Shown: one piece after another, positions 5,234 through 28,726 of the stretch
Position numbering within the stretch: position 1 is the first letter of the stretch
How the letters are laid out: every line of letters starts with the position of its first letter
IMG/VR virus record: IMGVR_UViG_3300029266_001283
Coordinates: 1-29,139 of that record
Strand: one strand, 5' to 3'
DNA from: a virus
Length of the DNA: 29,139 nt
Program-made: the position numbers and the translations under genes
Notes under the pieces: generated by a model
Seen by the model: only the letters and a program-made list of their open reading frames with translations
Database searches by the model: none
Told to the model about the DNA's origin: nothing

Positions 5234-8200
5234 TTAATTTGTTGTTTCTTTAAGGGTTACACTTAATGCACTTTCATTATCATTAGCATCATATGCTAGT
5301 ACATTTAAGTTGTATGAAGTAGCACTTGATAACCCTGTAACGCTGTAACTTGTATTTGTTGTTGATGCTAAATATGCACCATCCACATAAACTTTATATC
5401 CTGCAACACCAATATTGTCTGTAGAAGCTGACCATCCAAATAAGATACTACTACTTGTTTTAGATATGGTTTCTAAGTCTTGAGGTATTGATGGCGGCTC
5501 TAAGTCTAAAGCATTATTAGTAACAACAGTTAGCGTATTGCTAAATCCAGAATCTGAAGGTGCTGCTGAATCAAACGCTTTTACTTTTATATCATGAGAA
5601 GTACTACTCGATAGTCCTGTAATACTATGACTATTTGTTGTTACATTAGTTAAAAAGACACCGTCTAAATAAATAGAGTAACCATTATTACCTGTAGGTG
5701 TTCCGAATACTGAAGCAGTCCATGAAACATTTATAGATGTAGATGTTTTAGATACTAATATTAGGTTCGTAGGGTCTGAAGGAGTACTTCCATTTAGTGT
5801 TGTTGATGTTACTAATGGTGCTGATTTATAAGATTCAACCCCATCTTGAGACAAAGAAGTTACCTCTACGGTGTACGACTGACCATCTACTAAATTTCTA
5901 AGGGTAGCAGTAGGTGTATCTGGATTACCTCCTGTATAAGTTATACTTCCGTAATTAGCTTCTGTTCCATCAATATAAACCCTATAGTTGGTGGCTATCA
6001 CCCCTCCAGCAGGTATAGTCCACGTTATATCTATAGTTGTAGATGTAGTTCCTGTAGACGTTACATCTGTAGGTGGACTTGGTCTAGTAGAGTCTGCAAA
6101 ATTACCATTAATAAGCTCTAATACAGACTTACCTGTTAGCAAGTTCGTTTGAATCTTATTTATATTATAGTCTAGACTGTTTACCCTAAACACATCGTTC
6201 AACTCATAGTTTAATAGTATATTTAAAGGTAATTTAGCTTCTAACTTTACAAGTCTAGAAAACTTACTAAATGCTTTTTGTATGTACGTTGAGTAAAATA
6301 CTTGATACAGACTATTTTTATTTTCTAAACCTGTAAACTCATCATTTTCTTCATTAAAGTTTATGGTTTGTAGACCATCTTCACTAACATTGCTAGGTCT
6401 AAAGTAAGTCGTTATATTTGATTGTCCGCTTCCTGTAAATGCAAATGGAAATGCAGAATCATCTACTGTTGTAGGCACAGCATAATGTATTATAGGTTTG
6501 GTTTTTACAGGCTTTTCATTATCATCAACTAACCACCCTGTTTGTATTGGAGTTCTTATTGTTAAGTTATTTTCATCTGAGAATCTCTCAAAAAGCATAT
6601 GTTCAAAGCCTAACTTTATATCATATTTTCCTCCATCGTTAAAGAAAACAGATAAATCTCTATTATTTCTAGTTAAATCTCCAAATTCATCATTTAATAA
6701 TGTATTTTGATTAATAATACCAAAGGTACTAGGCTTACTATACTTAAAGTTTATTTCTGAATATGTTGGAGGTCTAGATATTGTTCCACTAGATATATTT
6801 ATGTATTTAGAAACATCTATAGTTTTTCCTGTACTATAATACTCATTTAACGACTTTACTATTATTTTAGTGTCTTGTGGCAAAGAAGTGTCTCTTTCAA
6901 AGTAAGCTGTTAGGTTAAACATCTTAAATATAGATTGTAGGAAATCTATAACCTTCATCTTAGGTATTTGATTTGCTAAAATAACCTTAGAAGCCATAGT
7001 CTCTGGTGAGTTAGGACTTGAATATTGAGTAGAGTCGCTTGGATAATTAGTGAAAGTTGAGCTTAAAACAATATTACCAGATAATTGCCTTTCTCTTTTA
7101 ATTATACTCAAATTAGCATTGTATGTGGCTAATGTACTTCCATCTTGAGTTGTTATAAAAAAGTTTAAATTCCAATTTCTCAATTCCACAGAAGATAGAA
7201 CATCAAAACCAACTATTACCTCCCCATTACCATCCAATCCATTAGCAGACTCTAATATATTTCCAGATAAAGTATCTACTATTCTAATGTCGTATGGTCC
7301 AGTACCTGTAATTGGAGTTATTATGAACTTGACAACATAACTAGTTTCTATTGAATTAATAGGCTCTAGACCTGTGGTAATTTGACTTATATCTAAATTT
7401 ACACCAAAGTCTTCTTGAGTAAATACAGACTCAGCAGCTATGGAATCAGTTATAGCACCCTTATCTCTATGCAGAAGCATATAAAGTTCATTAAAAGGAG
7501 CTGAATCAAAGTAAGTCTTATCAAAAAACAATCCATTGTATTTAGCCTCTATTGCATTTATTATGTGCCTTATTTTTATAGATGGTTTTAAATCCGTATG
7601 TTCTATTCCGTTAGTAGTTGAACTACCTTGTCTATGTAAATTTCTGCTAGGAGGGTCAAAAGTACTATTTCCGTTATCACTAGCATTTGAACTATAATAA
7701 TACTGAGAATAGCAGGATATAAATGGATATAAAATATCAGCGTTACTTCCAGTAATCATAGACTCAGTTGTATCGTCATACTCTAAACCTGTTATAAGTC
7801 CATTCTTTACTGTGTTTTGGTTGTAATCGTGATTAAATCTATTTAAGTAATCCAAGTCTGATAATTCATCCTTTCCTAGTATATCTGTAAGAGCTACAGA
7901 AGAACCGAAAAAAACTATTTTATAAGAAAATGGCTGGTTTATCCTCATATCAACATCATCAAGCCTTATTTTACCAAACCTAAAGTCAGCTCCTGCTATT
8001 TTTATAACAGCATCTCTTTTCATTCTACCATCATAACCATCTTGTATGTTAAAGTTGTAATAATGCTGAAATATTCTGTTATTATTTGCAGAAGCAGGAA
8101 CTTTGAATGATTGAGAATAGTCGGTAAATATCTTTCCAATATCCTTGACATCCTTTATCACTTGACTAAGATTTACAGCCTCAAAGTCAAATAAATCAAC

Positions 8201-8251
8201 TCTTTCATCTACTCCACTATCATTCTTTATGTAAAGCTCTAAATTCTTCAT
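5234..8251 (-). CDS. large tail-tip/baseplate protein with three fibronectin type III domains
   Basis: A 1005-aa protein. Residues 1-~720 form a tail-hub-like region beginning MKNLELYIKNDSGVDERVDL. The segment GKIFTDYSQSFKVPASANNN (~41-60) resembles N-termini of structural proteins I associate with Bacteroidota phages. The C-terminal ~285 residues are three tandem FN3 modules: ~722-822 (PPTDVTSTGT..TIDITW), ~823-917 (PTNLILVSKTSTSINVSW) and ~918-1005 (PQDLETISKTSSSILFGW). Each has the Trp of strand C and a YKVYVDG-type strand. FN3 domains on phage tails are thought to aid weak surface or polysaccharide binding. It directly follows the 469-aa tail protein without a gap. Exact tail-tip role is inferred. 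Confidence 0.75.
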   Translation of the reverse strand: MKNLELYIKNDSGVDERVDLFDFEAVNLSQVIKDVKDIGKIFTDYSQSFKVPASANNNRIFQHYYNFNIQDGYDGRMKRDAVIKIAGADFRFGKIRLDDVDMRINQPFSYKIVFFGSSVALTDILGKDELSDLDYLNRFNHDYNQNTVKNGLITGLEYDDTTESMITGSNADILYPFISCYSQYYYSSNASDNGNSTFDPPSRNLHRQGSSTTNGIEHTDLKPSIKIRHIINAIEAKYNGLFFDKTYFDSAPFNELYMLLHRDKGAITDSIAAESVFTQEDFGVNLDISQITTGLEPINSIETSYVVKFIITPITGTGPYDIRIVDTLSGNILESANGLDGNGEVIVGFDVLSSVELRNWNLNFFITTQDGSTLATYNANLSIIKRERQLSGNIVLSSTFTNYPSDSTQYSSPNSPETMASKVILANQIPKMKVIDFLQSIFKMFNLTAYFERDTSLPQDTKIIVKSLNEYYSTGKTIDVSKYINISSGTISRPPTYSEINFKYSKPSTFGIINQNTLLNDEFGDLTRNNRDLSVFFNDGGKYDIKLGFEHMLFERFSDENNLTIRTPIQTGWLVDDNEKPVKTKPIIHYAVPTTVDDSAFPFAFTGSGQSNITTYFRPSNVSEDGLQTINFNEENDEFTGLENKNSLYQVFYSTYIQKAFSKFSRLVKLEAKLPLNILLNYELNDVFRVNSLDYNINKIQTNLLTGKSVLELINGNFADSTRPSPPTDVTSTGTTSTTIDITWTIPAGGVIATNYRVYIDGTEANYGSITYTGGNPDTPTATLRNLVDGQSYTVEVTSLSQDGVESYKSAPLVTSTTLNGSTPSDPTNLILVSKTSTSINVSWTASVFGTPTGNNGYSIYLDGVFLTNVTTNSHSITGLSSSTSHDIKVKAFDSAAPSDSGFSNTLTVVTNNALDLEPPSIPQDLETISKTSSSILFGWSASTDNIGVAGYKVYVDGAYLASTTNTSYSVTGLSSATSYNLNVLAYDANDNESALSVTLKETTN

Positions 8252-9661
8252 CTACCTAATATTGTTTATTTTATTGAAAGAAAACTCTATATCTATCGTG
8301 TAATTTATTAGCTTATTATTTAGACTAGTCTTATAATCTATCGTGTTGTTTGAGATGTTTATTGGTAGTATCTTGCTATTGTAGTCTATCCACACCTGCT
8401 CACTTAACATTAATTGTCTAAATATTTCGTTAAATTCCTCTGGAACAAAACCACTATTTATAGTCATAGTTTCTTTAGCTGATGTATAGAAAGTACGGTT
8501 ACCATGAGAAGATATTATGTTATTCCTGTAGTCCGATATTGTATTTGACTTATATTCATCTCTTTCTATTTCCATAGACAATCTAGACGATTTGAAGAAC
8601 CATAAGTCTTGCTTTGCCCCATTTTTGTTTCTAAATATAATCTTGTAAGGCGTGTATTTACACTCCTCTATATCCTCAACCTTTATAATTCTGCTTGGGA
8701 CTGTTTTAGCTACAACTACATTATCTAGAGTAAAACCTAAAGGGTCTGCTAAATCATTAGCTTGTGCTTGAAATTGTATTCTATTTTCTTCAGTCGCAAC
8801 CCCATTAGCCGTATAAGTTCCGTTACCTGTAATAGCCACAGAGAAAGGGTATCTCATACTCGCAGTGCCTGTGCCGGTAAAGTTTGTTATATCAAAACTA
8901 ACAGCAAGACTATCTCCTATTACTGTTTTTAATTGATATAATCTATCTATAGCCAAATCGCTAGAACCTAAGAAACTTGCCCCACTATTAATAGTCCAAT
9001 CAGATGTTTCTTTTACCCACCCAGTATCTGTTGTGAAGTTAGGATTCGTAGTTATGTTAACATCATTATGTGAAGAAACTCTAACCTCTGTAACATTACT
9101 TAAACCTGCCCCTAAAGAAGATACTATACTAGCACTCTCAACATTTGATGCAGGAGTTGAGTTCAACACATTAAGTAATGTTGTAGCTCCACTAAGAAAT
9201 GTAACTTCACTAAAACGCCTATAATCTAAAGGAATAAGAACCTCACTACCATTAAGATTGTATATTAAATTATTGTCTATAAGGCATCCATCTACAGGAT
9301 AGTAATTATATCCATCTTCGTAATAAGAATAGCCATAGACAGCATAATATCCTGTTTGTATAGTTCCTACGTATATTGTAGACGTGGTTACTTTTGTTAT
9401 CTTATAATCAACCCATACAACACCATTATCGCTAGATGTTCCTGTGTATTTAGTGTCAATAAAGTCTTTTACTAAATCAGAAATATCCCAATAAACATTA
9501 TTAGGAGTATCTGTTACACTAGATTGAATGGTGTAATTTGAAGCAGCAGGTCTATCTGTTACTGCAGTTCCTTGATAAATCCATAGCTCTATAGAAGCAG
9601 ATATTAAGTTTGTTTCTGTTGCGTTTATCCAAAAAGGACTTCTAGCTAATATTTTGCTCAT
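8252..9661 (-). CDS. virion tail protein with possible carbohydrate-binding-like insert
   Basis: A 469-aa protein starting MSKILARSPFWINATETNLI. The N-terminal ~100 residues look beta-rich, with FN3-like strands (SASIELWIYQGTAVTDRPAA). The middle (~200-320) has a jelly-roll-like pattern, NPNFTTDTGWVKETSDWTI through FTLDNVVVAKTV, reminiscent of carbohydrate-binding modules. The C-terminus (KLINYTIDIEFSFNKINNIR) resembles a distal tail subunit edge strand. It overlaps the gp10-like gene by 20 nt and abuts the 1005-aa gene, so it is co-transcribed with tail genes. It is too beta-rich and in the wrong place to be a portal. Distal-tail or receptor-binding function is inference. Confidence 0.6.
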   Translation of the reverse strand: MSKILARSPFWINATETNLISASIELWIYQGTAVTDRPAASNYTIQSSVTDTPNNVYWDISDLVKDFIDTKYTGTSSDNGVVWVDYKITKVTTSTIYVGTIQTGYYAVYGYSYYEDGYNYYPVDGCLIDNNLIYNLNGSEVLIPLDYRRFSEVTFLSGATTLLNVLNSTPASNVESASIVSSLGAGLSNVTEVRVSSHNDVNITTNPNFTTDTGWVKETSDWTINSGASFLGSSDLAIDRLYQLKTVIGDSLAVSFDITNFTGTGTASMRYPFSVAITGNGTYTANGVATEENRIQFQAQANDLADPLGFTLDNVVVAKTVPSRIIKVEDIEECKYTPYKIIFRNKNGAKQDLWFFKSSRLSMEIERDEYKSNTISDYRNNIISSHGNRTFYTSAKETMTINSGFVPEEFNEIFRQLMLSEQVWIDYNSKILPINISNNTIDYKTSLNNKLINYTIDIEFSFNKINNIR

Positions 9662-15592: not shown

Positions 15593-15793
15593 TTATTTAT
15601 TTAATTGTTTTATATGTTTAATTGCTTCTTTTTTCATATGGTCAATATCTAGCCATTCTAGTAGCTCTATGGTTGTGAATACTAGTGTAACCTCTTCACC
15701 ATCTGAGTTAATACCTCCGATATATGTTTCATTTCTATATGTTTGATAGCTATCTATACTATGGAATCCTATAAATTTTGTTTCAATGCTCAT
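15593..15793 (-). CDS. hypothetical protein (66 aa)
   Basis: Begins MSIETKFIGFHSIDSYQTYR. The middle GGINSDGEEVTLVFTTIELL is beta-rich, and the C-terminal helix DHMKKEAIKHIKQLNK is basic. No family recognised. A coupled member of the AT-rich cluster, 4 nt from its upstream neighbour. Confidence 0.58.
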   Translation of the reverse strand: MSIETKFIGFHSIDSYQTYRNETYIGGINSDGEEVTLVFTTIELLEWLDIDHMKKEAIKHIKQLNK

Positions 15794-15797
15794 TGTT

Positions 15798-16004
15798 TTA
15801 TATTTCTATTGTTAATTTATTTATTTGAGGTTTTATAATTTCTATCAGTTTAAACGTTTGATATTTTAAACGATAACGTGTTAAATCATTTGTCAAAATG
15901 TATTCCTTAATAGTGTTGTTTTCTATATTAAAAAGTATGAATGCTTTCTTTGTATTGCTTAATTTAAGTAATAGTGTTAAATTAATTTTATAGGTATTTA
16001 TCAT
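15798..16004 (-). CDS. hypothetical protein (68 aa)
   Basis: Begins MINTYKINLTLLLKLSNTKK. Isoleucine- and lysine-rich, with beta-like segments (AFILFNIENNTIKEYILTND) and no Cys or obvious motif. 4 nt gap to the gp88-like gene upstream. Function unknown. Confidence 0.52.
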   Translation of the reverse strand: MINTYKINLTLLLKLSNTKKAFILFNIENNTIKEYILTNDLTRYRLKYQTFKLIEIIKPQINKLTIEI

Positions 16005-16008
16005 GATA

Positions 16009-16722
16009 TTAAATTGTATTTATTACAAAACCGCTTTTGTCTGTTCTAGCTTTACCTTTGGCTTTTAAGCCTAAAATAAAACCTTTGTACTTTAGCATTT
16101 CGTTATCCGTTTTGTCTCCGTCCATTACTGGAATACCTTTGTATGTTTGTGGTAATTCACCATTAAAAACTGCAGATACATTTGCACCATATTGCACCGC
16201 CTTAAAAATATCTTCTTCGTTATCTTCAGCACGTGAGAATGTTAATGTATAGTTTTTGTCATTGCTATATTTTTTTACTTTACCTAGTATTTTTGTATAG
16301 TCGTAAAAGTGTAAATTATTATAATTAGATATATCAAAACCAGCGTACTTTTTTAATAAGAATATGAAATCAAGGTCACTTGTGCCATTCAGACGTATTA
16401 AAGTTTGGTTAGTATTTTTACTTGCTTTTTTATCTATTTTAATTAGCTCACTAGCTAGTTGATTAATAAAAGCTTTTTTATCGTTTAAATAGTATTCAGT
16501 TTTGTTTTGTCTGGCTTTTATTACATTTGAGAATGCACCTCTACCAGCACTAAACAAACAAGCTGCAGCACATCCTTTACTTGCTTTTGGACAAATATTG
16601 ATTCCTTTGCTGTTTTGTTTGTATGGTGCAAGATATAAGATGTATGTATCTTGGTCATTTTTACTTGTTTTAGCATTAGTTGTTCCTTTACTTAAGAGGT
16701 TTTTCGGTATTTTATAATTCAT
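16009..16722 (-). CDS. gp88/DUF7227-like Cys-cluster protein
   Basis: A 237-aa protein, the only long gene in the tiny-gene cluster. Residues 27-33 (YILYLAP) lead into NICPKASKGCAAACLFSAG (42-60), with Cys at 44, 51 and 55 (C-x6-C-x3-C). Next come GRGAFSNVIKARQNKTEYY and LIRLNGTSDLDF. I associate CPxAxxGCAAACLxxAGRG plus RLNGTSD with a widespread phage family of unknown function (annotated as gp88-like or DUF7227). The three Cys suggest an Fe-S cluster or zinc site. Some have proposed a radical-SAM-like fold, but the canonical CxxxCxxC is not present here. The enzyme activity is unknown. Confidence 0.65.
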   Translation of the reverse strand: MNYKIPKNLLSKGTTNAKTSKNDQDTYILYLAPYKQNSKGINICPKASKGCAAACLFSAGRGAFSNVIKARQNKTEYYLNDKKAFINQLASELIKIDKKASKNTNQTLIRLNGTSDLDFIFLLKKYAGFDISNYNNLHFYDYTKILGKVKKYSNDKNYTLTFSRAEDNEEDIFKAVQYGANVSAVFNGELPQTYKGIPVMDGDKTDNEMLKYKGFILGLKAKGKARTDKSGFVINTI

Positions 16723-16724
16723 AG

Positions 16725-16982
16725 TTATGCACGTTTAAAGGTTAAAATTTGTTTTTCAATATAAAACTCGGTTAAACTTATATTATAAAGTTCGTCTATC
16801 ATGGTTAAATCTAACATGTCATAAAAATAAACCCTGTCTAAACTTACATTGTTTTCGTTTATTAATATTTTAGTAATATTATCTTTACTTTTATTAGCTT
16901 TTGTTTTACTGGTAAAAAAACGCTTTTCTTCTACTACTTTGTTTTTTATATCGTATACGGTTAACATTTGTATTTTATTCAT
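16725..16982 (-). CDS. hypothetical protein (85 aa)
   Basis: Begins MNKIQMLTVYDIKNKVVEEK. Lys/Ile-rich alternating strand and helix pattern (RVYFYDMLDLTMIDELYNIS) ending with a beta strand QILTFKRA. It sits 2 nt before the gp88-like gene, so is probably translated from the same mRNA. No family recognised. Confidence 0.55.
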   Translation of the reverse strand: MNKIQMLTVYDIKNKVVEEKRFFTSKTKANKSKDNITKILINENNVSLDRVYFYDMLDLTMIDELYNISLTEFYIEKQILTFKRA

Positions 16983-17013
16983 TTTTATAAGTTTTATTAA
17001 TTAGTATTTTAAG

Positions 17014-17265
17014 TTATTTTCTTATTCTAGTAAATTCCTTAGCCTTTCTATCTAGTATTAATTGAAAAGATTCGTTTAAATCATTTGTATCGTCATAACC
17101 TGAAGGGTTTACAAAACCCAAATCTATTTCTAAATATTTTAAATATCCAAATTTGAAGTCGTTCATGTCTAAAGTTACATTTGTATTGTGTACGTTAGTT
17201 CTAACCCTAACTTGTTCAATAAATTCACTGATTGATATTTTTTGTGTGTTCGTCATTTTATTCAT
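17014..17265 (-). CDS. hypothetical protein (83 aa)
   Basis: Begins MNKMTNTQKISISEFIEQVR. A second ATG three codons in (17254-17256) could be the true start. The middle KYLEIDLGFVNPSGYDDTND has a Gly/Asp-rich loop, and the end FQLILDRKAKEFTRIRK is a basic helix. No family recognised. Operon neighbour of the gp88-like gene. Confidence 0.55.
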   Translation of the reverse strand: MNKMTNTQKISISEFIEQVRVRTNVHNTNVTLDMNDFKFGYLKYLEIDLGFVNPSGYDDTNDLNESFQLILDRKAKEFTRIRK

Positions 17266-17267
17266 AG

Positions 17268-17474
17268 TTATATTATTTTAAAGGTTTCTAATTTGTTTAA
17301 ATTACTATTATAATACTTTTTTAATCTTATTATAATTAGCTTGTTTATTTGTATTCTATCTTGATGGTACACGTCAACTTTGTTACTATTCTGTAAATTA
17401 TAATTTTGTAACATGTTTATAAGCTCTAAAATTCTGGTTAACTTTTCAAAGGTTTTTATCTTGTATTTATACAT
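17268..17474 (-). CDS. hypothetical basic helical protein (68 aa)
   Basis: Begins MYKYKIKTFEKLTRILELIN, with helix-rich, Asn/Lys/Leu-heavy sequence (LIIIRLKKYYNSNLNKLETF) and no Cys. It lies 2 nt before the downstream gene. No family recognised. High A+T forces Lys, Asn and Ile, so composition alone is not informative. Confidence 0.5.
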   Translation of the reverse strand: MYKYKIKTFEKLTRILELINMLQNYNLQNSNKVDVYHQDRIQINKLIIIRLKKYYNSNLNKLETFKII

Positions 17475-17485
17475 TGTTATAGATT

Positions 17486-17740
17486 TTAATTATTAATTAG
17501 ATTAGATATTAAAAAATAAGCTTTATCCTGAAAAAAGCCAGCTCCAGAAATTAAAATTTGTACTGATGAATAACCATCATAAGACAAATCCTTTATTGTA
17601 TCTAAAAAGTTATTATTTATAGTGTAATTAATACTTATTTCTTCGCCTTTATTGTTTAATGCTGTAGATATACCATAAACAACCATGTCTGGATAAAACT
17701 CTTTTATTGCTTGGTAATTGTTTGTGTTTTCTATCTTCAT
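17486..17740 (-). CDS. hypothetical protein (84 aa)
   Basis: Begins MKIENTNNYQAIKEFYPDMV. The sequence VYGISTALNNKGEEISINY and SSVQILISGAGFFQDKAYFL suggests a compact beta-alpha fold with a conserved-looking Gly-Ala-Gly turn. No family recognised. Co-directional, 5 nt after the gene upstream. Confidence 0.55.
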   Translation of the reverse strand: MKIENTNNYQAIKEFYPDMVVYGISTALNNKGEEISINYTINNNFLDTIKDLSYDGYSSVQILISGAGFFQDKAYFLISNLINN

Positions 17741-17745
17741 TTTGT

Positions 17746-17979
17746 TTATTTATTTAATATATAATTAATTAATGTTTCTTTATTGTCATTATCTAAAGCC
17801 GTGTATAAATACATAAAAGCTGTTTGGCTATTCCCAAACCTATTGCAATAAGCTGAAAATTTATTTCTTAAATGTTGAGCTAAATAGTCATCGAAAATAT
17901 TCTCAATAAATTTATGTTCGTAATTAAACGAGTACATTATTACTTTGTCAACGGCATTAAAATTTGTTTTGTTTTGCAT
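17746..17979 (-). CDS. hypothetical helical protein (77 aa), first of the cluster
   Basis: Begins MQNKTNFNAVDKVIMYSFNY. The segment DDYLAQHLRNKFSAYCNRFG followed by QTAFMYLYTALDNDNKETLI is helical and resembles short conserved phage proteins of Bacteroidota (HLRxKFxxYCxRxG pattern), by memory. It is the promoter-proximal gene of the minus-strand cluster. Its leader lies in the repeat-rich control region (17980-18750), though I could not place a clear TAnnTTTG box. Function unknown. Confidence 0.58.
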   Translation of the reverse strand: MQNKTNFNAVDKVIMYSFNYEHKFIENIFDDYLAQHLRNKFSAYCNRFGNSQTAFMYLYTALDNDNKETLINYILNK

Positions 17980-18175
17980 TTTATAAGATTTTTAATAATT
18001 AATAATATTTAAACCTACAAAAAAACATTGATTTTTGTTCTTTTTTGTAAAAAATAATGTGTTAAAGTTTGAATTTTTATCATATTAACAACAAACAAGT
18101 AATTTTATTAATTATAATATAATAAAAAGCACCAAAAACTAAGAATAATTCATTGCGAATAATGCAAAAAACCTG

Positions 18176-18208
18176 TTAAAATGTGTTAAAGTTTTACGAA
18201 TAGTGTAA
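18176..18208 (+). repeat. 33-bp iteron-like repeat, copy 1
   Basis: TTAAAATGTGTTAAAGTTTT then ACGAATAGTGTAA. Copy 2 (18321-18351) differs by a 2-nt deletion and a few substitutions. A shorter relative of the tail (GCGAATAATGCAA) is at 18155-18167, and AATGTGTTAAAGTTT also occurs at 18056-18070. Confidence 0.6.
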
Positions 18209-18320
18209 TTTGTCTATTTTTACTGCATTTTATAGCTAAAAAAAACCTATTTTTTTACAAAAATCAATCAAAAACAATACTAATTTTGTCACTTTTTTAT
18301 GAATTTATGTCACTTTTACC

Positions 18321-18351
18321 TTAAAATGTTAACGTTTTACGAATAATGCAA
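18321..18351 (+). repeat. 31-bp iteron-like repeat, copy 2
   Basis: TTAAAATGTTAACGTTTTAC then GAATAATGCAA. Direct repeat of 18176-18208, 145 nt downstream. The central GTTAAC is a palindrome. The pair suggests a protein-binding iteron, possibly the origin or regulator of the minus-strand cluster. Confidence 0.6.
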
Positions 18352-18420
18352 CAAAACAAAAAAAGTACAAAACATCACAAAACCAGCTTTTAAAATGTAA
18401 TAAAGGTATTTTCTAAAATA

Positions 18421-18428
18421 TAACTTTG
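18421..18428 (+). promoter_or_regulatory. TAnnTTTG -7 element before a possible small ORF
   Basis: TAACTTTG matches the Bacteroidota -7 consensus, 25 nt before the ATG at 18453. No TTG at the expected upstream distance was seen. Confidence 0.3.
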
Positions 18429-18452
18429 TGATATAAAAATTAACAAATCTAC

Positions 18453-18623
18453 ATGAATGCGAATACAAAAAGTTTTTTAAACAGCAATAAAAAAACTTAC
18501 TTATTTTTAATATTTATATTGATTATAAATTTAGTGTTAAAATTGTTAAAATATTTTTTTATATCAATTATTTGGTTATTCGCGTGCGTGCGTGCGTGCG
18601 TGCGCGCGACCCCATCATATTAA
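18453..18623 (+). CDS. possible 56-aa membrane peptide spanning the GCGT tract
   Basis: ATG at 18453-18455, TAA at 18621-18623. It reads MNANTKSFLNSNKKTYLFLI, then a hydrophobic stretch (FILIINLVLKLLKYFFISII), then ACVRACVRA encoded by the GCGT repeat. A TAACTTTG -7 element is nearby. A hydrophobic frame is expected by chance in AT-rich DNA, and the ACVR tail is a microsatellite by-product, so this may not be a gene. Confidence 0.25.
   Translation: MNANTKSFLNSNKKTYLFLIFILIINLVLKLLKYFFISIIWLFACVRACVRATPSY
18581..18608 (+). repeat. 28-bp strictly alternating pyrimidine-purine GCGT tract
   Basis: CG, five tandem GCGT units, then GCGCGCG. Every step alternates pyrimidine and purine, the composition most prone to Z-DNA under negative supercoiling, and it stands out as the densest GC block in an AT-rich window. 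It directly abuts the first 19-bp repeat (18609). Confidence 0.75.
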
Positions 18624-18749
18624 ACATACCCCTCCATATTAAACATAGTGAGTCACCCCATCATAACAAAGACGGAATAAAAATAAGAAAGGAGCAACAA
18701 AATTAATTGTTACCCCTTCATAATAAACGCACCCCTTTATATTAAACGC
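18609..18749 (+). repeat. five-copy 19-bp repeat family (iterons)
   Basis: Copies start at 18609, 18628, 18655, 18712 and 18731. The first two read ACCCCATCATATTAAACAT and ACCCCTCCATATTAAACAT. Copies 1-2 and 4-5 are exact head-to-tail tandems. Copy 3 (ACCCCATCATAACAAAGAC) is more divergent, and copies 4-5 are ACCCCTTCATAATAAACGC and ACCCCTTTATATTAAACGC. The distance from copy 3 to copy 4 is 57 bp (3 x 19). Copy 5 ends 1 nt before the large terminase stop. All are in one orientation, typical of initiator, terminase or operator binding. Confidence 0.78.
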
Positions 18750-18750
18750 T

Positions 18751-19965
18751 CTATCTTATTGTGTAAATTCCTTTGTTCTTACTTGTAGCTAATCTCATTA
18801 AAGCATATCTAATAGAATCACAAAAATGATTAAACTTATCGATTGGTCTCACACCCTTCTCATGCCATACATAGTTATTAAACTCCTTTATAACACCATT
18901 ACTTCTTGGGTCTACTATTATCTCATAATCCTGCATAAGTGCTATACCAGATAAGATACTACCACTCTTCTTTACAGCAGGTTGTATGTTTAATCCTTTA
19001 GCCTTCAATTCTTTTATAAGTCTAGGCTCTGCTGAATCACAAACTATCAAATCTAAGCCACACTCAGCTCTATTCATATTAGCTATATCTGAGGTAGAAA
19101 GTCCTGTTTTACCATAAATCTCCTTTACATAGACTCTATTGTTAAAATCATCTATAGATATCTTTACGAGTGTTGTAGGGTCTTCAGAGAACCCAAAATC
19201 TTGACCATAAATAGTTTTTTCTGTCTGTATGTAGTCTCCAACTTTCCAATTTCTTATAATCGTTCCTTCTGCTTTAGCTAACCACCCTCCTAATATCTGG
19301 TGTTGATATTTATCTGGTCTTCTAGCTTTCATCTCTAATATCCTAGCAAGAAATGATTCCGACAGATTATCTTTGTTGTCTTTATACGTTGTATGGATAT
19401 AAGTTGTATCTCCTTTAGTACCATTAAATCCATCATCAACAATATTACCTAAAAAGAATCGTTGGTATATCCAATGCTCTTTTGTTGTAGGGTTTAATAT
19501 TAAAATAACCCTGTTTTGCTTCTTTAAAGACCTTATAGAGAAGTCAATCTTATCAAAGGTAGCTTCATCATCTAGTTCCTCTGCTTCATCCACTACAAAG
19601 GTTGTAATTCCATTTAAAGACTTTAATGCTGCTGTCTGATTACCACTAGAAGTCCTTATTCCTTTAAATATGATAGAAGAACCTGTTTGAAGGTTTGTTA
19701 TCTCATCCTTAGTTATCCTAAAGTGAGAATTTACTCCCATCATATCAATTTTCTCTACAAATTCTGGTATAATAGATGTATTGGCTGATGACATTGTATA
19801 ACGAGTAAACAGTATCTTATGTCCACTTTCGTATGTAAGGTTCAGTAGAAATACGTTTATACCAAAAGACTTACCACTACCCCTACCTCCTGTAATAACA
19901 TTGTACCTTGTCTTGCTTTGGAATAAAGGGATGTACTTATCATGCAGGTTTATACTATTCTTCAT
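18751..19965 (-). CDS. terL: terminase large subunit (DNA packaging ATPase-nuclease)
   Basis: A 404-aa protein. Walker A is GGRGSGKS (26-33), Walker B FVVDEAEEL (123-131), with a C-terminal coupling motif region at LILNPTTKEHW. The C-terminal RNase-H-like nuclease has the metal-ligand acids Asp256 in YGQDFGFSEDP, Asp310 in LIVCDSAEP, and Asp383 in FNHFCDSIRYAL. Length and motifs fit a PBSX/Terminase_6-type packaging motor that cuts concatemers and drives DNA into heads. It overlaps the small terminase gene by 11 nt. Unusually, no portal gene follows. Instead the 19-bp repeats and a control region start at its stop codon. Confidence 0.93.
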   Translation of the reverse strand: MKNSINLHDKYIPLFQSKTRYNVITGGRGSGKSFGINVFLLNLTYESGHKILFTRYTMSSANTSIIPEFVEKIDMMGVNSHFRITKDEITNLQTGSSIIFKGIRTSSGNQTAALKSLNGITTFVVDEAEELDDEATFDKIDFSIRSLKKQNRVILILNPTTKEHWIYQRFFLGNIVDDGFNGTKGDTTYIHTTYKDNKDNLSESFLARILEMKARRPDKYQHQILGGWLAKAEGTIIRNWKVGDYIQTEKTIYGQDFGFSEDPTTLVKISIDDFNNRVYVKEIYGKTGLSTSDIANMNRAECGLDLIVCDSAEPRLIKELKAKGLNIQPAVKKSGSILSGIALMQDYEIIVDPRSNGVIKEFNNYVWHEKGVRPIDKFNHFCDSIRYALMRLATSKNKGIYTIR

Positions 19966-20326
19966 CTTCTGGTGTTACGTCTATAATATCTTCTTTTGCA
20001 GGAGGCTGATGTCCATAGAAATTTATAACAGGAGTTGCTGACTTCTGTGTTGAATTACCAAACCCATCTTTAGGCTTACCATAAACATATTCTAACAAAA
20101 GTTTTCTATCGTTATGGTTTTTCTGAGCCTCTTCAGCTAAGTTCATCCAAAAGTCTTGTTCAGAACCAAATACCTTTTTAATGGCTTTGACTCCGAACTC
20201 CTTCATCCTTTCTCTCTTAGCTTTATTTATAGCTGCTGTAGTAGGTTTTACAACATCCAGCTGACCTTTCTTTCTTTTATTATAATGCCTACCATCAGTA
20301 GGTTTTATTTCATTTGATTTAGCCAT
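19955..20326 (-). CDS. terS: terminase small subunit
   Basis: A 123-aa protein starting MAKSNEIKPTDGRHYNKRKK, with a basic N-terminus, a helical middle (KAIKKVFGSEQDFWMNLAEE) and an acidic C-terminus (DIIDVTPEDEE). Small size, basic N-terminus for DNA binding, and an 11-nt overlap with the large subunit gene identify it. It should recognise the packaging site. Preceded by the same two-part motif as the virion operon (20343-20368), which suggests a late promoter. The acidic tail probably contacts the large subunit or portal. Confidence 0.82.
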   Translation of the reverse strand: MAKSNEIKPTDGRHYNKRKKGQLDVVKPTTAAINKAKRERMKEFGVKAIKKVFGSEQDFWMNLAEEAQKNHNDRKLLLEYVYGKPKDGFGNSTQKSATPVINFYGHQPPAKEDIIDVTPEDEE

Positions 20327-20342
20327 AAGTTTACTATTAAAT

Positions 20343-20368
20343 TTATAACGTAATATAGAAGTTTTTGT
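20343..20368 (-). promoter_or_regulatory. candidate late promoter of the terminase operon
   Basis: Minus strand: ACAAAAA, 9 nt, TACGTTATAA, then 16 nt to the small terminase ATG. It shares the exact 10-mer TACGTTATAA and the upstream box with the virion operon promoter candidate (11449-11473). Just upstream is an imperfect inverted repeat with GGCAC/GTGCT arms (~20380-20402). Confidence 0.45.
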
Positions 20369-20427
20369 TTACAACTAAGCACAAAGCACATTAAAACGTG
20401 CCTTGTACAATCTGTTGTAGATAATAG

Positions 20428-20661
20428 CTACAAATCAAAGCTTACCTTTTGCAAATTATCGCTATCTCTTTTAAGTGCTTCGTATTCTTGCTTAATAATC
20501 GTTACGCTACTATCAACAACAACGGGTATAGTTAATTTTTTAACTACATCGTCTTTTAAATAAATAATTTCCCTTAACCATTCATCTCTACTATCTATTT
20601 CTTCATTATAATGAGCTTCTATAAGCCTATCAAATTCTTTTACTAAATCTTCTTTTGTCAT
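20428..20661 (-). CDS. hypothetical acidic protein (77 aa)
   Basis: Begins MTKEDLVKEFDRLIEAHYNE. Helical and charged, with a Val/Ile-rich strand (KLTIPVVVDSSVTIIKQEYE) near the middle. No family recognised. It lies between the replication genes and terminase, with a 100-nt gap before the small terminase gene that holds the late-promoter candidate. Confidence 0.55.
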   Translation of the reverse strand: MTKEDLVKEFDRLIEAHYNEEIDSRDEWLREIIYLKDDVVKKLTIPVVVDSSVTIIKQEYEALKRDSDNLQKVSFDL

Positions 20662-20714
20662 AATTTCTTTTTATTTAATCCGTTAAAAATCTAACCATAC
20701 CCAAACCGTTGTAT

Positions 20715-21269
20715 TTACCAATGCATACCCTCCATTGAGGTACTAGACTCTATTATCTGGCATTTATCTTTGGTTTTCCACTCCCAAGACTTTATCCTTA
20801 GATTAATCATCTCATACATCTCTTTTCTTTTATCCTTTGGAATAGTATCTATTAAATCATGCAGTTCATTCCTTTCTCCAAAAGCCTTGTTCTTTTCTAT
20901 TCGTTCATTTATAATTTTAATTCTCTCAGACTTCCTAGCATCTATAACTTCCCTACTTTTTCTCTTATCATCAAAAAATACATCATAAACATTTCTAAAC
21001 TTAATAAAGTTATTGTAATAAATATCTATCTTCTTTAGTGCATGAAATATAGATGACCTGTTCTTTACAATACCCATATCAGCAAACCATTCGGATATCA
21101 TCCTGTCATTCATGCCATTTATATCTTTTAATATAACATACAGCAACGCTCTAAAGTAAGCCTTTTCTTCGTGTCTAGAAGAGTCATTTAAGTCTATACC
21201 TGTAATATCTACAAATCTATCAGCAAGCTCTTTGGCTGAGTGTTCGTTATAACCTTTAATTTTTATCAT
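20715..21269 (-). CDS. DnaA domain IV-like DNA-binding protein
   Basis: A 184-aa protein. The N-terminal ~100 residues have a helical arrangement with ISEWFADMGIVKNRSSIFHA followed by LKKIDIY, close to the DnaA-type helix-turn-helix in which a RxxxTVxHAxxKI segment reads the DnaA box. RSSIFHALKKI is the matching element. The C-terminal half is basic and coiled-coil-like (KSREVIDARKSERIKIINER). No ATPase part is present, so this is a domain IV relative that may bind an origin or regulate replication. It overlaps the upstream gene by 14 nt. Confidence 0.55.
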   Translation of the reverse strand: MIKIKGYNEHSAKELADRFVDITGIDLNDSSRHEEKAYFRALLYVILKDINGMNDRMISEWFADMGIVKNRSSIFHALKKIDIYYNNFIKFRNVYDVFFDDKRKSREVIDARKSERIKIINERIEKNKAFGERNELHDLIDTIPKDKRKEMYEMINLRIKSWEWKTKDKCQIIESSTSMEGMHW

Positions 21270-21507
21270 TTTTATCTCTGTTTTGTATTTTTTTATATTC
21301 TTTCCATATCATAATATAAGATTCTGTAAGGGATAGTATATCTGGATATGTGTGCTTCCTATGCCCTAGCTCTATAGATACCCTCCACTGTCCTTTAAAA
21401 GCTTTAAGATTAACTGCTTCTGGATATATTAAATACCCTTTATTAAAGCAATAACTCTGAGCCTCGTTGTCAGTATAGTAGTAATCAAATATCTTCTTCT
21501 TCGCCAT
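21256..21507 (-). CDS. hypothetical protein (83 aa)
   Basis: Begins MAKKKIFDYYYTDNEAQSYC. The middle VNLKAFKGQWRVSIELGHRK (~33-52) and TYPDILSLTESYIMIWKEYK suggest a small alpha-beta fold. The C-terminus is basic (KIQNRDKNDKN). No family recognised. It overlaps both neighbours, so it is likely translated in a coupled chain. Confidence 0.58.
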   Translation of the reverse strand: MAKKKIFDYYYTDNEAQSYCFNKGYLIYPEAVNLKAFKGQWRVSIELGHRKHTYPDILSLTESYIMIWKEYKKIQNRDKNDKN

Positions 21508-23403: not shown

Positions 23404-23994
23404 TTATTTTATATTATCGTAATCTCCGTTGTAGTAATCCTGCACGTCTTCATCAAACTTATCTTTTAATCTTCTTTTGCAGTTCTTAGAGGTATTGTAT
23501 AGTGAAGTTAGGCTGATGCCTTTATACCTTTTTCCGTTCTCATCAATAAAGTTGCTTTCTTTCTCCAAGCCTCTAAGTGAGATATCTGTTTTGTAGTAAA
23601 TGTCAGTAAACATTATGTCGTACCTGTGCCATTCCTTTATCTCTTTGTCAATGTTATTCATTAACCTTTCAAAAGCATGGTTCTCTTCAATGTCAAAAGT
23701 ATCTGTAATTTGGTAAGAGTAGACAACCTCGTCATATTCAACTAGAGGTTGCCTGCCCTTAACCCTCTTAAAATCAATACAAACACTAAACAAAGTACTA
23801 TAGAAATAACCGAGTCTTATTTCATTATTTTCATTTAAAATCTTACTAACATTTTTTAAAGACTTATGTATCTTTAAATATGCTTCTTGAACTAAATCTT
23901 CAGCAAAAACATTAGAGCCTACAATTTTAAAGGCTAGGCTAATCCATTTTTTGTGATTCTTGTAAAGCTCTATTAATAGCTCATCTTTAGTCAT
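23404..23994 (-). CDS. RNA polymerase sigma-70-like factor
   Basis: A 196-aa protein. The region-2-like N-terminal part has LYKNHKKWISLAFKIV then NVFAEDLVQEAYLKIHKSL (29-47), matching the sigma-70 region 2 pattern of AExLvQExylki. The C-terminal part contains SLRGLEKES and SLTSLYNTSKNCKRRLKD, which would be the region-4-like HTH. Size fits a short ECF-like sigma. It lies in the middle of the replication genes, so it would accumulate before late transcription. Candidate target: TACGTTATAA motifs before the terminase and virion operons. An alternative role is a helical regulator using the fold only. Confidence 0.72.
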   Translation of the reverse strand: MTKDELLIELYKNHKKWISLAFKIVGSNVFAEDLVQEAYLKIHKSLKNVSKILNENNEIRLGYFYSTLFSVCIDFKRVKGRQPLVEYDEVVYSYQITDTFDIEENHAFERLMNNIDKEIKEWHRYDIMFTDIYYKTDISLRGLEKESNFIDENGKRYKGISLTSLYNTSKNCKRRLKDKFDEDVQDYYNGDYDNIK

Positions 23995-25700: not shown

Positions 25701-26261
25701 TTACTGTACTAAAGCCTCTGCGACTTTCTTACTTATCTTATACTTAGTTCTAAGAACTTCTATATCTCCACCATCCTTCAACCACTTTTGTGCTTTAGGA
25801 AATTCTGGTGTACCTTCGTTTAACCATTTGGTTGGTTCTTCTGACTTAGCACCTTTGCCATGCGTATTTGTAGCGTCTGCATCCTTAGTATCATCTATTA
25901 AGAATAATCCATTTAAGGCGTACTTCCTTGCGTATGATGAACTACTACCAAACGACTGTGCGATGTCCATTCCCTTTCTATTAGGCTCTATACCTGCTTG
26001 TGCTTGTACACTAACCTTTGCATCCATATCTCCTAATGTAACTTTTGCTTCTGCAAACAATATACCTCCTAGTTCTTTTATCTCATCAGAGATAGTTAAT
26101 GCTAAAGCATACTTACTTAGTAGTGGCTTAACAGACTCTAGGATATCCTCACAGCTTCTGTAGTTGTACTTACCAAAATTATTCCTTTGGTTTTTTGGTG
26201 CTTTCAGTTCCTTCTGAATAGCAATTAACTTGTCGTTAAAATCTAATTCTTTTTTACTCAT
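25701..26261 (-). CDS. ERF-family single-strand annealing protein
   Basis: A 186-aa protein. The N-terminal core has KLIAIQKELKAPKNQRNNFG followed by KYNYRSCEDILESVKPLLSK, and SFGSSSSYARKYALNGLF (~103-120) carries the ERF signature. The C-terminal part (TKWLNEGTPEFPKAQKWLKD) is a small basic domain linked by a Thr/Gly-rich segment. ERF proteins anneal complementary single strands in phage recombination. With the RecE-like exonuclease (21684-22457) and the SSB-like protein it forms a recombination set. It is the first recognisable recombination gene in the early operon. Confidence 0.88.
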   Translation of the reverse strand: MSKKELDFNDKLIAIQKELKAPKNQRNNFGKYNYRSCEDILESVKPLLSKYALALTISDEIKELGGILFAEAKVTLGDMDAKVSVQAQAGIEPNRKGMDIAQSFGSSSSYARKYALNGLFLIDDTKDADATNTHGKGAKSEEPTKWLNEGTPEFPKAQKWLKDGGDIEVLRTKYKISKKVAEALVQ

Positions 26262-27879: not shown

Positions 27880-28056
27880 ATGAAAAAAGTAATAGTAAAA
27901 GATTTAGAGGGTTTAGATGAAGCAACAATATCTAAAATTGAAGTACCTATGATTTATCTAGGTGAGTATGAAGAATCTGGAGATGTGTTTGCAGATTTAA
28001 GAAATAGCAAAAACGAACCTATTAGAATATTTCACGAAAGATTAGAAGATGCTTGA
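27880..28056 (+). CDS. small acidic protein coupled to the Mom-like gene (58 aa)
   Basis: ATG at 27880-27882, TGA at 28054-28056. It begins MKKVIVKDLEGLDEATISKI, with acidic GEYEESGDVFADL, and ends FHERLEDA. It overlaps the Mom-like ATG by 8 nt, so the two are probably translationally coupled. In phage Mu the small Com protein is encoded in the same place and activates mom translation. This protein has no Cys, so it is not Com-like zinc-finger sequence. The parallel is in layout only. A TAATTTTG element is 30 nt upstream. Confidence 0.65.
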   Translation: MKKVIVKDLEGLDEATISKIEVPMIYLGEYEESGDVFADLRNSKNEPIRIFHERLEDA

Positions 28057-28726
28057 TTATAGAATTGAAATAATACCTAAAGAAAAGGGTAAGGAATGGA
28101 TAAAAGAAAAGCATTATGCAAAAAGACAACCTCCTATTAGCTATTTATTTGGTTTAATTATAAACTCTGAAATAGTTGGTATTTGTTCTTTTGGAACTCC
28201 AGCAAGTAATGCTCTTAGAAGCGTATATGATGATTATAAGGTTTTAGAATTAAATAGGCTTTGCGTTGATAACGGATTACCTAAAAATACATTGTCTTTT
28301 TTTGTGGGAAAGTGTTTAAAAATGATAGAAAAACCTTGCGTAGTTGTTAGTTATGCAGACACTTCTATGAATCATAACGGCTATATCTATCAAGCTACAA
28401 ATTGGGTTTATACTGGACTCAGTGCAAAGGTGAAAGATTACAAAGTTAAAGGTATGGAACATTTACACACATCTACGATTTTTGATATGAGCAGAGGTCA
28501 AAAAAATAGGGGTAAATGGTTAAAAGAAAAGTTTGGTGATGATTTGTATTTTGCTGATAGAGATAGAAAGCATAGATATTTTTACTTTATAGGCAACAAA
28601 ATAGAGAAAAAAGATATGTTAAAAAAACTTAGGTTTAAAGTAGAGGATTATCCAAAAGGAGAGAATAAAAGATACGATTCTTCTTATGAGGTAAAAGATA
28701 AGTTTATTAACCCTACTTTATTTTAG
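28049..28726 (+). CDS. Mom-like DNA adenine modification protein
   Basis: A 225-aa protein. Signature segments are KEKHYAKRQPPISYLFGLII (19-38), EIVGICSFGTPASNALRS (41-58), LELNRLCVDNGLPKNTLSFF (66-85) and SYADTSMNHNGYIYQATNW (101-119). This is the pattern of the phage Mu Mom family, a GNAT-like fold that converts adenine to N6-methylcarbamoyl adenine and protects phage DNA from many restriction enzymes. The C-terminal half is basic and ends FINPTLF. The length of 225 aa is close to the Mu protein. It overlaps its upstream partner by 8 nt. Catalytic details are from family knowledge. Confidence 0.75.
   Translation: MLDYRIEIIPKEKGKEWIKEKHYAKRQPPISYLFGLIINSEIVGICSFGTPASNALRSVYDDYKVLELNRLCVDNGLPKNTLSFFVGKCLKMIEKPCVVVSYADTSMNHNGYIYQATNWVYTGLSAKVKDYKVKGMEHLHTSTIFDMSRGQKNRGKWLKEKFGDDLYFADRDRKHRYFYFIGNKIEKKDMLKKLRFKVEDYPKGENKRYDSSYEVKDKFINPTLF

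Follow-up and report, generated by a model that had tools for sequence, protein, structure and literature searches.

A conserved repeat array at operon junctions of uncultured marine flavobacterial phages and its possible role in transcription control

What purpose is served by a tandem repeat array located at the stop codon of the terminase gene in an uncultured phage? The DNA analysed here, referred to as the window, is a stretch of 29,139 bases, a fragment from an uncultured virus record. A sequence-only reading had drawn attention to an alternating tract joined to five direct repeats at the end of terL, and had suggested that they might serve as an origin of replication, in packaging, or as an array of operators. 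The features considered in this work are listed in Table 1.

Table 1. Positions of the features discussed in the text, numbered along the window.
Feature	Position	Strand	Remark
Promoter-like element TTG-N19-TATTCGCATTCATGTAGATTTG, a weakened copy of the family TTTG-N19/20-TAnn-(alternating Y-R)	18444..18487	-	9 of 13 steps alternating
(GCGT)n alternating tract, CGCGTGCGTGCGTGCGTGCGTGCGCGCG; tetranucleotide expansion of variable length	18581..18608	.	
Array of five 16-bp repeats, unit GTTTAATATGATGGGG	18609..18749	-	kept in 92 of 95 relatives
Intrinsic terminator of terL, GAAGGGGTAACAA-TTAATT-TTGTTGCTCCTTTC, followed by a T-rich stretch	18687..18719	-	13-bp stem, -16.2 kcal/mol
Terminase large subunit (terL), last gene of the upstream operon	18751..19965	-	
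AT-rich non-coding leader between the array and the next operon, with further 25-bp repeats	17980..18580	-	
Downstream operon of small genes, one of them GP88 (PF17338)	15593..17979	-	likely target of the control module
Phage ECF-like sigma factor	23404..23994	-	candidate reader of the promoter-like element (inferred role)

By TerL, the nearest cultured relatives of the window were the Nonlabens phages P12024L and P12024S (52.6%); these two were also the only matches in the phage collection at the DNA level, by way of terL, and no cultured relative carrying the array was found in that collection. Relatives were gathered by a TerL search and a search for repeat pairs, which together yielded more than 100 related contigs. 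The survey of the module covered 95 distinct regions in which 600 bp or more follow terL, and 17 whole contigs were scanned for strand and pattern. In one of the contigs (G023, a contig of L086) terL was present as two overlapping pieces, 8199-8966 and 8953-9405, owing to a frameshift or a sequencing error. The ends of two whole contigs overlapped, by 114 bp in G007 and by 77 bp in G017, at different places of the map, which indicates that the maps are circular and about 34-35 kb long. The window and six relatives had no matches when searched for Rfam families and tRNAs.

The five repeats were found where they had been described, with plus-strand starts at 18609, 18628, 18655, 18712 and 18731. 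These were the five sites with at most one mismatch, compared with 0.01 expected, and the rest of the window had none. With the last 19-mer ending at 18749 and the stop codon of terL at 18751-18753, the reported 1-nt gap was confirmed as well. The repeat length needed correction: 19 bp is the commonest spacing, whereas the conserved unit comprises 16 bp. Similarly, the 57-bp gap, which had been interpreted as a multiple of 19 (3 x 19), is a coincidence, the gaps in the relatives being mostly 43, 45, 25, 23 and 84, with each of the first four commoner than 57. Read on the strand of terL and the flanking genes, the repeats have the sequence GTTTAATATGATGGGG, the third copy (18655) being a variant, CTTTGTTATGATGGGG. 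Among the relatives the core TGTTTAAYAT is nearly invariant and is followed by two or three looser bases and then by GGGG or, less often, CCCC. The unit is asymmetric and the copies are arranged head-to-tail. A GGGG unit folds with a CCCC unit behind it into a hairpin, and several of these hairpins precede a T-run as in intrinsic terminators. The terL terminator of the window, which the sequence-only reading had overlooked, lies inside the array: the repeat copy at 18712 provides its 5' arm with its tail, the G-run. A hairpin occupies the same position in relatives of both identity groups.

When the repeat was looked for in related phages, as had been suggested, at least two copies were present in 92 of the 95 relatives, invariably in a single orientation, although the TerL proteins of these phages are only about 61-75% identical. 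This degree of conservation contradicts, for the repeats, the idea that a chance microsatellite has come to lie beside functionless chance repeats, which for the locus as a whole is hardly credible; the (GCGT)n tract taken alone does fit it. The perfect pyrimidine-purine alternation over 28 bp at 18581-18608 was borne out, and in dinucleotide shuffles the (GCGT)n core had 0 expected matches even with three mismatches allowed. Such tracts were found at the array edge in three genomes only, with lengths of 28 bp (the window), 36 bp (L234) and 44 bp (L026). The combination of a Z-prone tract with iterons therefore does not extend to the family, and the GCGT tract was dropped as a candidate for the family's Z element. 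In the window the tract behaves like a local microsatellite-type expansion at the edge of the array; alternating sequence of this kind would at most permit left-handed (Z) DNA. In the promoter-like element described below, the same three genomes have ATTG where the family form has TTTG, an agreement within one lineage that carries no statistical weight.

The location of the array was informative with respect to packaging. In 80 of the 95 relatives the array lies within 120 nt of the terL stop, and in most it begins a few bases after it, as might be expected of a pac site, a cos site or a terminal-repeat region recognised by the terminase. The linkage is not constant, however. In G020, which has an altered gene order, the array follows the operon of an AAA gene and precedes the g68 operon, the same early operon that follows the array in other relatives, whereas terL is located elsewhere; downstream of the array this contig has the Y-R element CTCGCATATGTATTC and the promoter TATATTTG. 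Five contigs (G017, G018, G019, G022 and G029) have further repeat copies at other operon junctions, while outside this group the copies are confined to one or two junctions. The gene order of G020 and the additional junction copies show that the array is tied to the junction and to the operon that follows it, and not to the terminase. Moreover, six relatives (L005, L107, L136, L144, L162 and L167) possess a second array 1.6-2.4 kb downstream of the first, each with its own, different Y-R element. Two modules in a single genome also argue against a packaging site, as does the fact that the two contigs with overlapping ends close at different places and that other contigs end elsewhere again. 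Taken together, a role in packaging is very improbable.

The second modules of L005, L107, L136, L144 and L167 were read, and each is preceded by a hairpin and T-run resembling a terminator; two of these hairpins were folded. The recurring order is terminator, repeat array, AT-rich stretch, TTTG-N19/20-TAnn with alternating Y-R, and an operon of small genes. Barring two chance partial matches, all copies of the array in the 17 whole contigs are on one strand, which is weaker evidence than it looks because nearly all genes are on one strand. At the level of sequence, the array belongs to a module that is conserved, has one orientation, lies at operon junctions and does not depend on terL.

The promoter-like element of this module was found in most relatives, mostly about 60-180 nt from the last repeat, in AT-rich DNA. 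Its family form consists of TTTG, 19 or 20 bases, TAnn, and then 12-16 (about 14) alternating pyrimidine-purine bases. For the statistics, flank, base composition and a TTGTA anchor served to locate the elements, and alternation was not used in finding them. Of 60 distinct elements, 52 had a distance of 19 or 20 between TTTG and TAnn. The same 60 elements had on average 10.73 alternating steps out of 13, compared with 6.06 in the flanks and with 6.79 (sd 0.22) when the bases were shuffled within each core; in a separate control, TTGTA sites taken genome-wide with the same GC filter had 6.2. Among 46 distinct cores 14 were perfect and 37 had at least 10 alternating steps; the alternation is retained even as the bases themselves vary. 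A strict pattern, TTTG-N19/20-TAnn-(YR)4, occurred in the 17 contigs ten times in sense and never in antisense orientation, each time 60-435 nt after an array, and G002, which has two arrays, has two matches. The Y-R test was failed by 22 of the 95 relatives, of which at least three (L115, L142 and L168) have the element and miss the TTTG filter only.

Differences between neighbouring elements were also counted. In the core there were 60 transitions and 69 transversions, compared with 32 and 110 upstream (odds ratio 3.0, p = 4e-5); the p-value is approximate since the pairs are not a phylogeny, and the enrichment is conservative since, with the greedy pairing used, misaligned pairs add transversions to the core. 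The transition excess in the core and the presence of two Y-R sequences in one genome favour a structural constraint over a letter-by-letter one, and two different Y-R sequences in the same genome also disfavour a strict sequence-specific operator. A tentative interpretation, to which we assign a low probability, is that these elements represent a promoter class whose start region is set by Y-R alternation and not by a fixed sequence, served by a phage sigma factor and governed by the upstream array. As part of the same doubtful interpretation, the alternation might be recognised by way of DNA shape, by how readily the DNA melts, or by a transition to the left-handed form.

Other sequences were noticed around the arrays. 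The AT-rich leader of the window contains, at 18153-18208 and 18327-18355, repeats of another family that are TTGCATTATTCGTAAAACGTTAACA-like when read on the minus strand, and L154 has a similar sequence. In eight relatives (L048, L050, L060, L066, L083, L096, L125 and L140) a block of some 100 nt (GGTAGGGCGGAGTCTACTCTTTCGAACCTCTCAG...) that follows the array is conserved and looks structured; Rfam and tRNA searches in six relatives gave no hit for it, and it displayed almost no covariation. Dyads like TTATTTAGACTCATTATAAATAA, which we take to resemble a Fur-type box, lie between the array and the promoter-like element in L041, L105, L144 and others. The window also encodes a DNA modification gene of the Mom family at 28049-28726 (Pfam PF25680, 4.8e-38).

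A candidate for the sigma factor is encoded in the window. In profile comparisons nearly the full length of the protein matched SigW and SigL, in keeping with the region 2 and region 4 that an ECF sigma requires. Pfam recognised region 2 in 17 of 18 homologues and no further region. In a comparison of the predicted structure, a modest model (pLDDT 77), ECF sigmas were the top matches, with weak scores (E about 1e-3 at best) and a poor superposition of the whole chain. A homologue was present in every array-bearing contig except G026, which is truncated.

These results suggest, with moderate confidence, that the array belongs to a module that controls transcription at operon junctions; of the functions proposed by the sequence-only reading, an operator or transcription-control array fits best, and packaging is disfavoured by G020 and by the double modules. 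Such a module could work as follows. The end of the upstream operon and the intrinsic terminator would close one group of genes. A protein would bind to the head-to-tail 16-bp sites and control or insulate the downstream promoter. The TTTG-N19/20-TAnn element would act as a real promoter with its -7 and start region in the Y-R stretch, the phage ECF-like sigma factor may take part, and the module as a whole would set when the next operon of small genes is turned on. The variable distance between array and element speaks against this reading, as an activator of fixed geometry would not tolerate such variation.

An unlikely but still serious alternative is that the repeats are iterons for a phage initiator at a replication origin, with the AT-rich stretch melting as in the lambda origin and the nearby promoter providing activation. 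Four to seven tandem sites, most commonly spaced by 19 bp, next to AT-rich DNA are in line with this, and so are the near-palindromic core TGTTTAAYA and the position of one of the AT-richest 400-bp windows, which in most contigs is just after the array. The window also encodes, at 20715-21269, a protein that had been labelled DnaA-domain-IV-like. DnaA domain IV was indeed its top structural match, but the match was weak (E 0.04), and the protein was not detected in five array-bearing contigs, G016, G017 (the one with overlapping ends), G018, G019 and G022. Given the five array-bearing contigs in which no copy was detected, the array probably does not depend on this protein, which is unlikely to bind arrays in general; an initiator other than the DnaA-like protein is possible. 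The origin is further disfavoured by the two modules per genome in several relatives and by the extra copies at other operon junctions, some of which form terminators. GC skew is uninformative in this respect because, with the genes on one strand, it is monotone. Locally, the skew of 20001-21500 is strong (-0.34 to -0.36), more so than that of most neighbouring genes.

It is also conceivable, with a similarly low probability, that the repeats have no regulatory role and serve as short homologies through which phage recombinases exchange cassettes of terminators, small genes and promoters. The hairpins, genes and promoters between repeats do differ, and in L003 (7360-7620), L035 (7356-7616) and L081 (7272-7532) an 86-aa gene on the opposite strand lies between repeats as a cassette that close relatives, L004 for instance, lack. 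There is an exonuclease-VIII-like gene, and 25701-26261 was assigned as ERF-like, by eye only. Passive homology, however, would require neither the very strict conservation of the core nor the joint recurrence, with few exceptions, of the array and the Y-R element.

The module, which probably controls transcription, is common to about a hundred uncultured marine flavobacterial phage contigs, where it marks the end of one gene programme and the start of the next. If the Y-R element is a promoter, what is conserved at its start site would be a property of the DNA and not a sequence, and the large set of natural variants makes this idea directly testable.

Several known systems share features with the module. 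Nonlabens phage P12024L (Inhavirus) resembles the phages studied here in TerL, in recombination genes and in a protein with sigma region 2, but lacks the repeats throughout its genome and is without a long gap downstream of terL. Lambda-type iteron origins likewise have tandem sites of about 19 bp beside AT-rich DNA; in contrast to them, the present array is not located in an initiator gene, may occur twice, and no constant initiator was found for it. The stoperators of cluster A mycobacteriophages, the sites of the L5 repressor, are short, asymmetric, intergenic, close to promoters and in one orientation relative to transcription (PMC9283540). The sites described here are also asymmetric and of a single orientation, a likeness weakened by the gene-strand bias. 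Stoperators are numerous and scattered over the genome; here, copies at further junctions occur in the group of G017, G018, G019, G022 and G029, whereas most genomes have tandem arrays of 4-7 sites at one or two junctions, and no cognate repressor was identified. The paired repeats were absent from the bacterial and archaeal genome collection, with no prophage or host copy and no sign of lysogeny.

The flavobacterial sigma-A promoter has TTG at -33, a spacer, and TAnnTTTG at -12 to -5 (PMC9723704). The phage element is similar in its TTG or TTTG, its 19-20 spacer and its TAnn, but where the -7 box has TTTG it has the alternating Y-R stretch, beginning with CG or TG. Because this half of the -7 box is absent, sigma-A may not use the element. 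Promoters of ECF sigmas carry CGT in the -10 region, as in the F. psychrophilum motif SM6 (PMC9723704). At the usual distance, inspection by eye recognised no ECF-type -35 (GAAC-like) sequence. The likeness to ECF promoters consists in the CG(T/C) that commonly follows TAnn, and in the fact that the phages encode an ECF-like sigma factor of their own.
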